A stretch of DNA of 23,554 nucleotides from a virus. Of this stretch, positions 6,073 to 23,554 are shown piece by piece. The position numbers were made by a program, and so were the translations under genes. The stretch covers positions 1-23,554 of IMG/VR virus record IMGVR_UViG_3300030104_000277; one strand, written 5' to 3'. Each line of letters opens with the position of its first letter. Positions within the stretch are counted from its first letter, which is position 1. The notes under the pieces are model-generated. The model was not told the DNA's origin and did no database searches. It saw only the letters and a list, made by a program, of their open reading frames with translations.

Positions 6073-9000
6073 ATGGCACAAACATATACAAGACAAAGTT
6101 CTTTTATTGATGGTGATACTATCACCGCAGCATTATTTAATGATGAATACAATCAGTTAGTAAATGCATTTGCATATTCATCTACAAGTGCTAGTAATAC
6201 TGGACACAGACACGATGGCACTGCGGGGCAAGGTGGTAATATTCCACAAATTGGTGATTTAGATTTTTTAAACAAAATAGTTGTTGATAGTAGCAATAAT
6301 AGATGGGGATTTTATGTCGAAGTATCTTCTGCTGCAGTAGAACAAATTAGAATACAAGATGGAGCTATTGTTCCTGTTACAGATAATGATATAGATTTAG
6401 GAACAAGCTCTTTAGAATTTAAAGATGCATTTTTTGATGGCACTGTAACTACAGATGCTTTAGTAGCTGACACTGCAGATATAAATGGTGGTACTGTTGA
6501 TGGTGCTACTATAGGAGCTAACTCAGCTTCTACTGGTGCATTTACTACTGTTACTACTACAGGTAATGTAGATGTAGGTGGTAATCTTACAGTCACAGGT
6601 ACAACAACATTTAATGGTGGTACATTAACTCTAGGTGATGCTAATACAGATAATATTGTTTTTGGTGGAGAAGTAGATTCTAATATTATTCCTGACGATG
6701 ATGATACACACGATTTAGGTAGCTCTTCAAAACAATGGAAAGATATATACATAGATGGTATTGCTTATGTAGATGGTATAAATTTTGATGGTACAGCAAT
6801 CACATCAACAGCAGCAGAAATTAATATTCTTGATGGGGTAACAAGTACTGCTGCAGAACTAAATATTTTAGATGGTGTTACATCAACTGCAGCAGAACTA
6901 AACATACTTGACGGAGTTACTTCTACTGCTGCTGAGTTAAATATTTTAGATGGAGTTACTTCAACTACTGCCGAACTAAATATTCTTGATGGTGTTACAT
7001 CTACAACAGCCGAACTAAATATTCTTGACGGTGTAACTGCTACTACAGCAGAGCTTAATATTATGGATGGTGTTACTGCTACTACAGCAGAACTCAACAT
7101 TATGGATGGTGTAACTTCTACAGCTACAGAACTAAATATTGTAGATGGTAATACGTCTGCTACATCCACTACACTTGCAGATGCTGACAGAGTGGTAGTA
7201 AATGACAACGGTACTATGGTACAAGTTGCCTTGACAGACTTTGAAACTTATTTTGAGTCTGCCCTTGATACACTTTCTAATGTTACAACTGTAGGAGCAC
7301 TAAACGCAGGTAGCATTACAAGTGGCTTTGGAGCTATAAACAATGGCTCATCTGCTATTACAACTACAGGTACAATTACTTACGGTTCTTTATCAGATGG
7401 TACAATAACTGTTACAGCTTTTGTAGATGAAGATGATATGGCTTCAAACTCTGCAACGCTTATACCAACTCAGCAATCTGTTAAAGCTTATGTAGACACA
7501 CAACTAACTGCAGAAGACTTAGATGTAACAACTGATAGCGGAACTATTGCGATTGACTTAGATAGTGAAACGTTAACAGTTGCAGGTGGAGAAGGTATAG
7601 ATACATCTGCTACTTCTAATACAATAACAATAGCTGGTGAAGATGCTACAACATCTAATAAAGGTATAGCTTCATTTAGTTCAGATGATTTTACAGTTTC
7701 TAGTGGAGCAGTTAGTCTTGCAACTACTTCAACTGCTGCAGAGTTAAACATTCTTGATGGAGCAACAGTTACTACTGCAGAACTTAATATACTTGACGGT
7801 GTTACATCAACTACTGCAGAACTTAATATCTTAGATGGAGTTACTGCAAATGCAACAGAATTAAATTTACTTGACGGTGTAACTTCTACAACTGCTGAAT
7901 TAAATATTCTCGATGGTGTTACCTCTACTACTGCAGAGTTAAACATTCTTGATGGTGTAACGTCAACCACTGCAGAATTAAATATTTTAGACGGAGTAAC
8001 AAGTACAACAGCAGAATTAAATATTTTAGATGGAGTTACCTCTACTACTGCTGAGTTAAATATATTAGATGGAGTAACCAGTACTGCTACAGAAATTAAT
8101 TTACTTGATGGCTCTACAGCTAATACAGTAGTAAATAGTAAAGCAGTTATTTATGGTTCTAGTGGAGAACTAGCAGGAACACTTTCAACTGCAGCACAAA
8201 CAAATGTTACCAGTGTTGGAACTTTATCAAGCTTAACAGTTTCTGGTGATGTTACTGTAGATACTAATACTCTTAAAGTTGATAGCTCTAATAATAGAGT
8301 AGGTATCGGTAATGCTTCTCCAGATGTATCTTTGGATATTGGTAGCTTTACAGATGCTATACACGTACCAGTTGGTACAACAGCACAAAGACCGGGAAGC
8401 CCTGCAGCAGGATACTTTAGATATAACAGCACAACTGGTGGCTTTGAAGGTTATACAGACGAATGGGGTGCTATAGCCGGTGGTGGTGCAGGAAGTTCTT
8501 CTACTTTTGCTAAGAATACTTTTACTGGAGATGGCTCTACTACAGCCTTTACATTATCTACAAGTATGACCAGTGAAGATGGTCTGATAGTATTTATTGA
8601 TGGTGTTTATCAAGCTGATAATGTTTACTCAGTTTCTGGTACTACTCTGACTTTTGCAACTGCTCCTGTTAATGGTAGAGTTATTGAAGTCTTTCAATTA
8701 GAAGGTGGTATTGTTGGAGTTGCTCCAGTAATTGCTACTATGACTGGTGATGGCTCAGATACTACTTTAGACTTAACTACAAGTCCTGATTCAGAAAACC
8801 AAACATTCGTAACTATTGATGGTGTTGTTCAACATAAAGACACTTACTCAATCTCAGGTAGCACACTAACTTTTAGTGCTGCTCCTCCTAACGGAACTAA
8901 AGTAGAAGCTATTATCTTTAACAATGTAAGTGTTGCAACTTTCCAAGATGCTGATGGCGATACTAAGATTCAGTTAGAAGAAACTACTGACGATGACACT

Positions 9001-20363: not shown

Positions 20364-20605
20364 TGTTATTGTATACAGAAAAACAACTAGATAGAGCTTA
20401 TCAGATAGACTGTAGAGCTCGTACTCGCAACAATACTCCTTGGATAAAAAGAGAAGAGTTTAGAGACATTTACGAAGATTTGATGGAAATCTATATGTTG
20501 CAGTTAGACAAACATCATGCATTAGACCCCGATGCTCCAGATTTTATTTTAGATTCATTGAACGAAATAATAGGACAAAGTTTGCATTTTGAACCGGAGG
20601 ACTAA
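20363..20605 (+). CDS. Small conserved phage protein, 80 residues, unknown function
   Basis: Both ends overlap neighbours by one base (TAATG), so it is coupled to the ejection protein before it and the holin-like gene after it. The product starts MLLYTEKQLDRAYQIDCRAR and is helical and acidic, with EEFRDIYEDLMEIYMLQLD in the middle and a Cys at residue 17. There is no membrane segment or signal peptide. I recall the MLLYTE.QL..AY...EEFR.I.ED.ME pattern in many marine phages at the same place, between the ejection and holin-like genes. No function is known to me. A role in lysis timing or virion assembly would fit the place but is a guess. Confidence 0.68.
   Translation: MLLYTEKQLDRAYQIDCRARTRNNTPWIKREEFRDIYEDLMEIYMLQLDKHHALDPDAPDFILDSLNEIIGQSLHFEPED
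20596..20600 (+). promoter_or_regulatory. Ribosome binding site of the holin-like gene
   Basis: GGAGG lies 4 bases before the ATG at 20605, inside the end of the 80-residue gene, alongside a TAATG overlap. Confidence 0.65.
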
Positions 20606-21039
20606 TGGGTTTTCCGTTTGAGATTATAACAATGCTAGGCTCTACCGTATTGGGTGGGGTCATGAGTATATGGGCAGAAAATAGAAAAGCTAAAGCCGAA
20701 GAACAAAGACTTCTTATCACAAGAGGCGAGTTTGAAATGAAAGCAGTAAAAGCTGCTAGAGATAATAAAGATGTAGGCTTTCAATGGACTCGTAGAATTA
20801 TCGCACTAACTGCAGTTTTTGCAATTATTGTTTTACCTAAACTTGTAGCAATATTTGCTCCAGATGTTTCAGTAACTGTTGGGTATACACAATTTAAACC
20901 CGGATTTTTATTTTTTACTAAAGATGTAGAAATATTTAAATGGGTTACATTTGAAGGGTTAGTAATTACGCAGTTAGATACTAATTTAGTATCAGCTATT
21001 ATAGGAATGTATTTTGGTGGGAGTCTAGTCAAGAAATAA
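20605..21039 (+). CDS. Holin-like membrane protein with three hydrophobic segments, 144 residues
   Basis: Hydrophobic segments lie near residues 5-22 (FEIITMLGSTVLGGVMSIW), 62-86 (TRRIIALTAVFAIIVLPKLV) and 120-142 (ending SAIIGMYFGGSLVKK). The linker between the first two is a charged helix (NRKAKAEEQRLL). Three segments, small size and a place after a lysozyme-bearing protein fit a phage holin, and the ending resembles the three-segment holins of gene-transfer-agent type. VSVTVGYTQFKPGFLFF between segments two and three is a pattern I recall from marine phage proteins often labelled holin. A holin would form holes in the inner membrane to time lysis. Lysis activity has not been shown; a virion membrane protein is possible. 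Confidence 0.68.
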   Translation: MGFPFEIITMLGSTVLGGVMSIWAENRKAKAEEQRLLITRGEFEMKAVKAARDNKDVGFQWTRRIIALTAVFAIIVLPKLVAIFAPDVSVTVGYTQFKPGFLFFTKDVEIFKWVTFEGLVITQLDTNLVSAIIGMYFGGSLVKK

Positions 21040-21052: not shown

Positions 21053-22075
21053 ATGAAAAGAGGGCTAATTGTTGGGGCGATATTATTATTTGCATTAAAT
21101 GTGCAATCAGACCAGACAGGTGACTGTACTGCTGGTACGCAATATTGTGAGCAAAATAGTTTAAATACTACTAATAATACTACTACGAATAATACTAATA
21201 CAAATACTAATACCAATAATAATACTAATACTAACACAAATACCAATACCAATACTAATACCAATACTAATACTAATACTAATGTAAATACAAATACTTC
21301 TACAAATACAAATGTAAATACAAATACGTCAACAAATACTAATAATAATAATAACGTAAATACTAATACTAATACTTCTACTTCTAATTCAACTGTTAAT
21401 TCAACAGTTAATCAAAACGTTAATAACAATAACACTAGTACTTCGACAAACACTAATAACAATACAAATACTAATAATACGACATCTGATAATACTAATA
21501 AAAATTACAATGAATCTAATTCAAATTCAAATGTAAACACTAATAATACAAATACTAATAATTCTACAGCTAATAATACTAATAATAATTATAATAAATC
21601 AGAGTCTACACAAACAATAAATCAAAATATAAATCAAAAAGCTCCTCCAGCTTCTGCGATTGCACCGAGTATTATGTCTTACTCACAGGACCTTTGTACC
21701 ACTGGAGTCTCTGGAGCTTTTCAAGGTCAATTATTTGGTATCTCTGGCGGTAAAGCAATTCGAGATGAAAACTGTGAGAGATTAAAATTATCAAAATATT
21801 TATACGATACTGGTATGAAAGTAGCAGCAGTGTCTATTCTTTGTCAAGACCCTAGAGTATTTAAAGCTATGAGCAATGCTGGAACTCCTTGTCCATACAA
21901 AGGTAAAATAGGAGACGAAGCTAAAGTTGCTTGGGCAGCAAACGTAGAAGAGACTCCAACATATAAAGAAGATTTAAAAAATTACGTTGCTAAGTGTAAA
22001 AAGACTAGAAATCTAAAAGGTATAAAAAAATCTGGCAGCACTTGTCGTAGAGAATTTCATGCACAAAGTAGCTAG
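21053..22075 (+). CDS. Exported protein with Asn/Thr repeat and Cys-rich C-terminal domain, 340 residues
   Basis: A Sec-type signal peptide is clear: MKRG, a hydrophobic core LIVGAILLFAL, and likely cleavage after VQS at residue 19. Next is a short part with two Cys (GDCTAGTQYC), then residues 38-196 made almost only of Asn, Thr and Ser. The C-terminal 144 residues form a conserved-looking domain with six Cys: SYSQDLCTTGVSGAFQGQLF, NCERLKLSKYLYDTGMKVAA, VSILCQDPRVFKAMSNAGTP. Eight Cys in all fits disulfides outside the cytoplasm. I recall this C-terminal domain (APPSAIAP..M.YSQD.C..G.SGA, NCER.KLS..L) in uncultured marine phages. Function is unknown. The repeat probably makes a long flexible stalk; surface display or secretion are possible. 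Confidence 0.75.
   Translation: MKRGLIVGAILLFALNVQSDQTGDCTAGTQYCEQNSLNTTNNTTTNNTNTNTNTNNNTNTNTNTNTNTNTNTNTNTNVNTNTSTNTNVNTNTSTNTNNNNNVNTNTNTSTSNSTVNSTVNQNVNNNNTSTSTNTNNNTNTNNTTSDNTNKNYNESNSNSNVNTNNTNTNNSTANNTNNNYNKSESTQTINQNINQKAPPASAIAPSIMSYSQDLCTTGVSGAFQGQLFGISGGKAIRDENCERLKLSKYLYDTGMKVAAVSILCQDPRVFKAMSNAGTPCPYKGKIGDEAKVAWAANVEETPTYKEDLKNYVAKCKKTRNLKGIKKSGSTCRREFHAQSS
21164..21640 (+). repeat. Asn/Thr low-complexity tract of about 159 codons
   Basis: The tract is built mainly from AAT/AAC and ACT/ACA/ACC codons, alternating as Asn-Thr over long runs, with blocks of Asn, Ser and Val (NVNTNTSTN type). Part of it (about 21195-21290) is a near-perfect 6-base repeat. All units keep the frame. 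Confidence 0.93.
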
Positions 22076-23554
22076 TGAAAAGATTAGGATTAATTTTTTT
22101 ACTGTTAATTAGTGCAAATATATCTGCTCAGTATATTTACGAATCTAATCAAGATTTATTTGATTTAACTAATCAATCTAATACAACAAATTTAAATAGC
22201 GGTGATGACCAACTATCTGCTGCTTTTAATTTAGATTTTACGTTTCAGTTGTATGATAATTCTTATACATCTGCACGTATGGCAACTAATGGTTGTCTAC
22301 ATTTTGGGTTAGGAACTGGCAATGTAAATTTTAATAATTACTGCGGTGACTATACCCCTGACCCACTGCCCCAATACACTAATACACTGTTTCCTTTTTG
22401 GACTGACTTAATACGAGATGGTGGGTCACAAATGTTAGCTAAGAATTTTAGCGATAAATCTGTATTTGGTTGGTATGATTTAAGAGAATTTAATCGTGCT
22501 AATTCAGACAATAGTTTTGAAGTTATACTTTGGACTGATAGCACTTTTGAGTTTCGTTATGGTGAATTAGATGTTATAAACCATGATGTCTTGATAGGTG
22601 AACAAGGTAATTCATCGCAGATTTATATGTACCTTTTTCATGACGAGTGTTCCACAGGCACAACAAATGTTTCAGGTACATGTGTCAATATTAATTGGAA
22701 CAATACCGTTGCTAATAGTTTATTAGAAAACGGTGGGTCATTGTATGGCAGTAATCTAGATTGTAGTGACCCTTTAAATGATTCGGCATGTCCGGGTTAT
22801 TGGGAAGCTTTTGATGATTTACAATGTGATTTAGACCCACAGTATGCACCCTCTTGTCCGGGCTATAGCTTTGAAAATGACATTGGCTATTTTGTATTAG
22901 AAGAAGATTTTGGTTATACCGAAGAATATGAACAAGACCAATTAGGGTATGACGAAGATTATGAAACAGAACAGTTTGGATATTCTGATGATTGGCTTGA
23001 AGATGATGGGCAATTTTTAGGACAAGAACCAATTGAAGACTGGCTTGAACCTGAAACTATATTTACTGAAGAGGGTCTTATAGTTTTAGAAGAGTATGAT
23101 AGCATGAACGAAGAGGTCTACATAGACTTTGATGTTCAACCGTTTGATGATGAGCCTATGTTAATAGCTTTACCATCGATTGAATATGACCCATTACAAC
23201 GTTTAAATGTTCTTGATACTAGAGAATTAGTAGACTTGTATGAATTTGAAACAATAATTAGAGACGAGATATTAAATGAAGAAGAAATTAATGACGTGGC
23301 TTTTGAAGACTTCGAAGAAATTGAAGAATGGTTTGAAGAAGAGTTGGAAACAATTTCACAAGATGATGAAGTCATCGAGATTGTCCAAAATAGTGAACAA
23401 CCTCTATCCGAAATCGAAGAAGAACAAGAAGTCATAGAAGAGATAGCCGAAGCCGACCCCACAATCAGAGAGGAAGGAGGTCGAAGTAACATGGATATGA
23501 ATGTTGCTATGTCTATTGTGGCTAATACTATAACAACTGCTGTTAACAGTGTGA
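22075..23554 (+). CDS. Exported protein with nidogen-like domain and acidic C-terminal half (partial, GTG start)
   Basis: The frame opens at GTG overlapping the previous stop (TAGTG) and runs without a stop to the window edge, 493 codons. A signal peptide follows (MKRLGLIFLLLISANISA, cleavage after residue 18). Residues 50-195 resemble a NIDO (nidogen-like) domain: SARMATNGCLHFG, LPQYTNTLFPFWTDLI, SVFGWYDLRE, NSFEVILWTDSTFEFRYG. Residues 230-264 are Cys-rich with two CPGY motifs around YWEAFDDLQCDLDPQYAPS. From about 274 to 465 the sequence is extremely rich in Glu and Asp, with FGYTEEYE/LGYDEDYE repeats. The end visible here (MDMNVAMSIVANTITTAVNS) looks helical. It is the second exported protein in a row. 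Adhesion or a role at the host surface is inferred from the domain; I know of no proven function. Confidence 0.75.
   Translation, partial: MKRLGLIFLLLISANISAQYIYESNQDLFDLTNQSNTTNLNSGDDQLSAAFNLDFTFQLYDNSYTSARMATNGCLHFGLGTGNVNFNNYCGDYTPDPLPQYTNTLFPFWTDLIRDGGSQMLAKNFSDKSVFGWYDLREFNRANSDNSFEVILWTDSTFEFRYGELDVINHDVLIGEQGNSSQIYMYLFHDECSTGTTNVSGTCVNINWNNTVANSLLENGGSLYGSNLDCSDPLNDSACPGYWEAFDDLQCDLDPQYAPSCPGYSFENDIGYFVLEEDFGYTEEYEQDQLGYDEDYETEQFGYSDDWLEDDGQFLGQEPIEDWLEPETIFTEEGLIVLEEYDSMNEEVYIDFDVQPFDDEPMLIALPSIEYDPLQRLNVLDTRELVDLYEFETIIRDEILNEEEINDVAFEDFEEIEEWFEEELETISQDDEVIEIVQNSEQPLSEIEEEQEVIEEIAEADPTIREEGGRSNMDMNVAMSIVANTITTAVNSV
22222..22659 (+). other. Nidogen-like (NIDO) domain
   Basis: The region shows the NIDO order: a strand with ATNG.L.FG, then LP...T.L.PFW.DL, a V.GWY strand and a F.V.L..D...F.YG strand. 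NIDO domains are extracellular in animals and occur in some bacterial surface proteins. The match is by motif order, read by eye. Confidence 0.55.
22894..23470 (+). repeat. Acidic repeat-rich region of the exported protein
   Basis: About 190 codons are dominated by GAA, GAT and GAC. The first part has spaced GY[TD]E motifs about ten residues apart; later it becomes long Glu runs broken by Ile, Phe and Trp (EEIEEWFEEELE type). Confidence 0.8.

Follow-up and report, generated by a model that had tools for sequence, protein, structure and literature searches.

A widespread family of predicted exported phage proteins with an unusual, two-faced Asn/Thr stalk

Results

We analysed a stretch of 23,554 nucleotides (hereafter the window), which is part of a 36,268-base virus record, IMGVR_UViG_3300030104_000277. 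Gene A, an open reading frame (ORF) with an ATG start at 21053..22075, encodes a putative exported stalk protein of 340 amino acids, whose residues 120-300 match the PHROG 20531 profile (E 2e-14). By reading, the protein starts with a signal peptide (residues 1-19, 21053..21109), MKRGLIVGAILLFALNVQS followed by D, with KR in the n-region, a hydrophobic core and V-Q-S ahead of the break at about residue 19, a layout seen across relatives. Then come a conserved N-terminal segment (residues 20-37, 21110..21163) with two cysteines, C25 and C32, in DQTGDCTAGTQYCEQNSL, which is retained in window-clade relatives, a 159-residue Asn/Thr/Ser stalk (N38-K196, 21164..21640) and a C-terminal domain of 144 residues with six cysteines (residues 197-340, 21641..22072), delimited by alignments and AlphaFold2. 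Between the first two invariant cysteines of this domain, a beta-hairpin is predicted (21698..21763) from AlphaFold2 strands in two models, one of them of low confidence. All of these features lie on the plus strand. The arrangement of signal peptide, 159-residue stalk and six-cysteine domain, proposed in an earlier note made from the sequence alone, was thus found in full in the ORF. The stalk had also been called nearly pure in Asn, Thr and Ser; the bias is indeed strong, but purity is about 87%, or 137 of the 158 codons at residues 36-193 (N 72, T 49, S 16).

Upstream of gene A, we found a gene for a 1331-aa protein with a phage lysozyme domain at its end (Pfam E 1.3e-16) and two small genes. 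The upstream neighbour at 20605..21039 (plus strand; PHROG 38283, E 6e-10) encodes a 144-aa membrane-type protein that is absent from most relatives. Downstream, the start of gene B (22075..23553, plus strand) overlaps the stop of gene A. Gene B is an ORF that runs past the window, and a complete relative of 712 aa is present in L014; its putative exported product has a NIDO-like, lectin-like N-terminal part followed by Glu-rich and Ser/Gly-rich parts. Elsewhere in the window, a long tail-type gene carries 39-base tandem repeats with a TAELNILDGVT unit at 6812-7164 and 7725-8111, as detected by TRF.

The signal peptide is kept by nearly all relatives. Of 265 hits whose 5' end is intact, 262 were positive by a signal-peptide heuristic; of the three misses, L058 looks truncated and the other two show a signal by eye. 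Allowing any start within the first 60 codons, the heuristic accepted 248/251 gene A sequences versus 255/584 control ORFs, and 220/251 versus 212/584 if only the first start was considered. As the control rate is high, the heuristic alone is weak and our judgement on export rests also on the sequences inspected. No lipobox was found in the 262 A proteins. Taken together, export of the gene A product is well supported by its predicted signal peptide, presumably via Sec to the periplasm of the infected cell. Relatives lacking both the signal peptide and the repeat did not occur.

The family is widespread. A tblastn search with the C-terminal domain matched 11 of 50,697 phage records, namely six Pelagibacter phages (including the myophage Mosig), two Roseobacter phages, two phages from spring water and one uncultured Mediterranean phage. 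A first scan of viral contigs yielded at least 597 confirmed relatives, 80 of which were retained, and further scans with Mosig, Roseobacter and Mediterranean queries gave 201, 120 and 11 confirmed stretches, respectively, with the overlap between scans left uncounted; genome contigs contributed 17 loci. The domain profile was positive in 281 of 281 records examined. A structure search led to the Achromobacter phage phiAxp-2 (viral structure library, E 0.03), which was confirmed by the profile (E 3.6e-7), and further searches led to other contigs and to Agrobacterium phage JP1 (profile E 3.5e-9). In the last eight records the profile matched six, the exceptions being HTVC008M and the L288 record. 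The Achromobacter and Agrobacterium phage members are distant relatives. PHROG 20531 also matches HTVC033P, Mosig, CRP-207 and the Achromobacter-type relatives tested, with the exception of L287. This PHROG carries no function annotation, and the stalk register and partner genes described below lie outside its definition. Our literature search on the stalk or the family found neither a paper pointing to either nor a described function.

That the C-terminal domain is the conserved part, as the earlier note had supposed, is borne out by the hundreds of contigs found with it across marine viruses and by four of its six cysteines (C215, C241, C264 and C280), which do not vary in any of the 59 aligned relatives. 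The domain probably holds two disulfides, as these cysteines suggest. AlphaFold2 predicts a beta-hairpin followed by six helices, with ten-residue blocks mostly at pLDDT 74-97. No PDB relatives of the domain were found by sequence, Foldseek searches of the PDB with both models (full and domain) gave nothing at E <= 0.001, and the best VIA Z-score was 4.0 with the full model, where the match fell on the low-confidence stalk, against 2.6 with the domain model. All eight matches in the viral structure library at E <= 0.001 are uncharacterised or unnamed proteins. We considered a membrane-inserting hairpin, i.e. a pore, between the first two cysteines as a candidate reading and set it aside.

Measured from the heuristic cleavage site, the segment ahead of the domain spans 9-408 residues in relatives, so that repeat length is variable. 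Several relatives are almost stalkless, so the core function does not require a stalk. At L095:1422-3011, the stalk has 408 residues and consists of NVNQNINSGTMTNINQNT-like units, closer to a classical beta repeat than the stalk of the window. In the window clade, stalks between two conserved anchors have 113-273 residues; their length is odd in all 57 distinct sequences, and in 28 of 28 once near-duplicates are removed; since the stalk sequences share ancestry, neither number counts independent trials. Six 5'-truncated loci (L016, L020, L032, L068, L081, L085) and L058 were left out of this measurement. Parity varies in the adjoining parts, the C-terminal domain having 141, 142, 143 or 145 residues (103 in one cut locus) and the signal-to-Cys segment being even in 39 and odd in 18 cases.

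A period of two is also apparent along the window stalk, in which the eight strongest autocorrelation lags are all even. Across the window clade, Asn lies mostly on one alternating face (57% vs 18%). The distribution of charges is more one-sided still. In the cores of the 28 non-redundant stalks, from which the first 14 and last 12 residues were omitted, charged residues occupy 0 of 2204 positions on the Asn/Ser face and 182 of 2176 on the Thr face; in 2000 shuffles, the minimum on the Asn/Ser face was 69. With the stalk ends counted, the numbers are 28/2568 versus 256/2540, and the 28 are mostly or all Glu directly after Cys. The distant members L095-L097, with the register taken from the C-terminal domain end, carry 2 vs 13, 0 vs 9 and 1 vs 14 charged residues per face. 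Hence, we regard the two-face pattern as well supported.

Could such a pattern arise by chance? Between the stalks of the window and L017 we counted 16 synonymous and 3 non-synonymous changes over 158 codons, and 15 and 0 over 154 codons for the window and L014; stalk dN/dS was 0.00-0.23 (12/14 pairs computable), similar to the folded domain. TRF detected only a decayed hexanucleotide repeat with 73% matches in the stalk. The excess of synonymous changes and the decay of the repeat together argue against chance. The stalk DNA resembles itself more at a shift of 6 than at a shift of 3 in 28 of 28 sequences, and slippage in hexanucleotide steps could alone preserve the odd lengths, but it does not explain the one-sided charges. 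A single base change turns an Asn codon into one for Lys or Asp; that neither residue occurs on the Asn/Ser face would therefore point to selection rather than mutation.

From its regular pattern, the stalk looks like an ordered, two-faced beta rod with one face packed. AlphaFold2 draws strands here at a pLDDT mostly below 50 and thus does not predict an ordered fold. This very low pLDDT, the freely varying length and the mostly uncharged, soluble residues would suit a disordered Asn/Thr linker with no other task than to keep the C-terminal domain off a surface, in line with the flexible spacer of the earlier note. Set against that proposal are the strict alternation, the invariant odd length (57/57), the confinement of charges to a single face and the strong purifying selection on stalk residues, and a featureless spacer therefore appears rather improbable to us. 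Glycosylation, which the earlier note raised for a host that glycosylates, is not suggested by the sequence: the stalk has 21 N-x-S/T sites but not one D/E-x-N-x-S/T site. The latter is the sequon of the bacterial oligosaccharyltransferase PglB, and we rejected bacterial N-glycosylation of the stalk as no acidic-type sequon is present. As far as the available excerpts describe them, beta-solenoid proteins with Asn/Thr ladders (ice-binding, ice-nucleation, HET-s) share the alternation of inward and outward residues and the stacking of polar side chains. In contrast to these proteins, no turns or rung length are recognisable in the stalk, so the likeness is one of pattern only; the same applies to an antifreeze-type TxTxT use.

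Gene A is usually paired with another gene for an exported protein, in most marine phages one for a lectin-like acidic protein. The NIDO assignment (Pfam PF06119, cut-off 25 bits) is below the cut-off for gene B of the window (14.4) and above it for its relative in L072 (30.5). Complete examples of gene B encode mostly about 590-860 aa (430 in L051); their N-terminal part is NIDO-like or lectin-like in another way, and beyond the Glu-rich and Ser/Gly-rich parts they also share a conserved end. In the first scan, an ORF of more than 300 aa follows A in 61 of 64 complete cases, while the remaining three start with a short extra exported gene; in L053, L064 and L083, an exported-looking gene of 130-133 aa stands directly after A at the usual place of gene B. 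A long ORF follows A in 64/73 cases of the second scan, 10/10 of the fourth, 0/80 of the Roseobacter scan, 8/11 phage records and 8/10 genome contigs. Gene B of HTVC033P matches five of the 50,697 phage records, all of which carry A; gene B of the window clade had no match in the phage records.

Other partners occur elsewhere in the family. Directly upstream of A, a putative exported, Gly/Ser/Ala/Asn-rich repeat protein is encoded in 12 of 12 Achromobacter-type loci, i.e. four Achromobacter phages plus eight contigs related to them (L286 is close to those phages; L285, which is phiAxp-2, was not counted a second time). Such genes adjoin the A relative at L281:45216-45710 (minus strand), L282:2409-2918, L283:2269-2775 and L284:2323-2814, and in JP1 the repeat gene lies downstream of A. 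Both genes of the phiAxp-2 pair were found together in the same five records; in the four Achromobacter phages, whose genome types differ, the two genes appear to travel as a unit. In Roseobacter-type contigs (loci L191-L270), a small ORF with A's four-Cys core lies just upstream of or overlaps A in 71 of 80 cases, and 7 of the other 9 contigs end too soon upstream; the overlap may shrink if A starts after the heuristic start. This lipoprotein-like copy of the core, e.g. at about 414-662 in L220 and about 1710-1937 in L010, is also present in two of three Roseobacter-type phage records, L013 having none. A strict lipobox was found in 35 of 73 of these ORFs (two phage records included) and a looser one in the rest. 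Near A outside the Roseobacter group, such a copy was found in 0 of 198 loci, 21 of which have no upstream room. In the CRP-207 record, no gene is annotated in the frame of this ORF.

The earlier note had placed gene A in a lysis region. The lysozyme domain upstream agrees with this, but holin and spanin families had no match among the window neighbours searched, and relatives of A occur among replication and early genes. In Mosig (the record taken as circular), A and its partner have primase/ribonucleotide reductase genes on one side and methyltransferase/DNA polymerase genes on the other. In four Achromobacter phages, A is next to genes for cysteine dioxygenase, a helicase or a polymerase, and in JP1 it is surrounded by small genes, helix-turn-helix proteins being among their products. 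These positions favour an accessory envelope function over lysis or a virion role. In two-component spanins such as Rz/Rz1, the lipoprotein gene overlaps or abuts its partner gene. Gene A might likewise encode a spanin-like lysis helper, an exported rod across the periplasm that would act together with its partner to disrupt or fuse the outer membrane late in infection. In favour of this, A comes after the lysozyme-domain protein in the window, 6 of the 11 phage records found by tblastn (HTVC033P, HTVC023P, AP013540, CRP-207, CRP-810 and MW202481) have an annotated lysozyme or peptidase no more than 5 kb from A, and a lipoprotein-like gene overlaps or abuts A in Roseobacter-type phages. Spanins and the putative A module would alike be exported envelope proteins. 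We nevertheless consider such a helper unlikely, as A varies in position and is often distant from lysis genes, shows by reading no transmembrane anchor, in the inner membrane or elsewhere, besides its cleavable-looking signal, lacks a lipobox throughout and has a Cys-rich core.

Curli or type VIII secretion operons (CsgG, CsgF, CsgA/B) of pelagiphages have been described, and they resemble our module in that SAR11 phages encode exported repeat proteins as accessory genes in variable regions (PMC9599517, PMC7029224, PMC9004378). CsgG was found in 0 of 58 records bearing the A family (0/48 and 0/10), many of which are fragments. As a positive control, CsgG was detected in HTVC008M (E 1.8e-54), which has no A. 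The related SAR11 myophages differ in this respect: HTVC008M (L295, L297) has CsgG without A, and Mosig (L008, L299) has A without CsgG. With E values of up to 10 allowed, no curlin-repeat Pfam match was obtained for A of the window, L091, L095-L097, L109 or L191, although filters can lose weak matches. With CsgG missing from these 58 records and curlin matches missing for these proteins, we rejected gene A as a curli substrate. The module is thus separate from curli, but may serve a similar end.

Discussion

The existence of a widespread family with a predicted export signal and an unusual stalk is a firm observation. From the earlier note's interpretation, the export signal, the conserved C-terminal domain and the variable repeat stood. 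The flexible spacer was not supported, glycosylation was not suggested by the sequons, and a lysis role was not suggested by gene position. What might such proteins do for the phage? Following its Sec-dependent passage into the periplasm, which the signal peptide suggests, the stalk may adopt an ordered beta fold whose two faces differ, the charge-free Asn/Ser face packing inside or against another chain and the Thr face pointing all charges outward. The rod would join the conserved N-terminal two-Cys segment to the small, probably two-disulfide domain. Together with a second exported protein, which depending on the phage may be the lectin-like gene B product, the Gly/Ser/Ala-rich repeat protein or the lipoprotein-like core copy, A could form an assembly located on the outer membrane or on the surface of the cell. 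We see roughly even chances that gene A belongs to such an envelope or surface module of infected cells. The lack of a fold match for the C-terminal domain gives no hint of an activity and counts against the proposed role.

The partner genes also bear on an opposite arrangement, in which the structure is attached to the virion. Among the named genes of metaviromic islands, the annotation 'putative carbohydrate binding domain containing protein' leads with 14 cases and was read as host recognition (PMC3909814). The same annotation stands on gene B of HTVC033P and of the uncultured phage AP013540, so that gene B might be this receptor protein and A its stalk, as a decoration or receptor-binding part of the particle; that the 14 island genes correspond to gene B would follow from the shared annotation only. 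Virion proteins of tailed phages are assembled in the cytoplasm, which is at odds with the Sec-type signals on both A and B, and A is found among replication genes in several phages. No virion proteome of any A-bearing phage was found in the literature covered. A virion part is the reading we find hardest to believe.

If gene A does belong to a surface module of infected cells, its most likely use would be to alter that surface, either by masking receptors against other phages or released progeny or by sticking cells together. We put forward receptor masking or adhesion tentatively, as one possible use. The mode of working would resemble a phage-encoded surface fibre or adhesin rather than CsgG-type curli. 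More speculatively, the proteins might form a CsgG-independent family of phage surface fibres, in which a two-faced beta rod bearing a new disulfide-type domain, paired with an interchangeable partner of the lectin or repeat kind, coats the cell surface or cross-links it; in this complete form we hold the proposal to be doubtful.

Gene A occurs in hundreds of marine viral contigs and in cultured phages of SAR11, Roseobacter, Achromobacter and Agrobacterium. If the surface-fibre proposal is true, the module would span phages from SAR11 to Achromobacter and Agrobacterium and its proteins would be among the commonest exported virus proteins of the ocean. Should A remodel the surface of infected cells, the 'carbohydrate binding' partner, which is hypervariable and at present taken for a receptor-binding protein, would get another meaning, and the finding would be relevant to how the most abundant bacteria of the ocean aggregate and undergo superinfection. 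Through its relatives in Achromobacter and Agrobacterium phages, this question comes within reach of culturable hosts.
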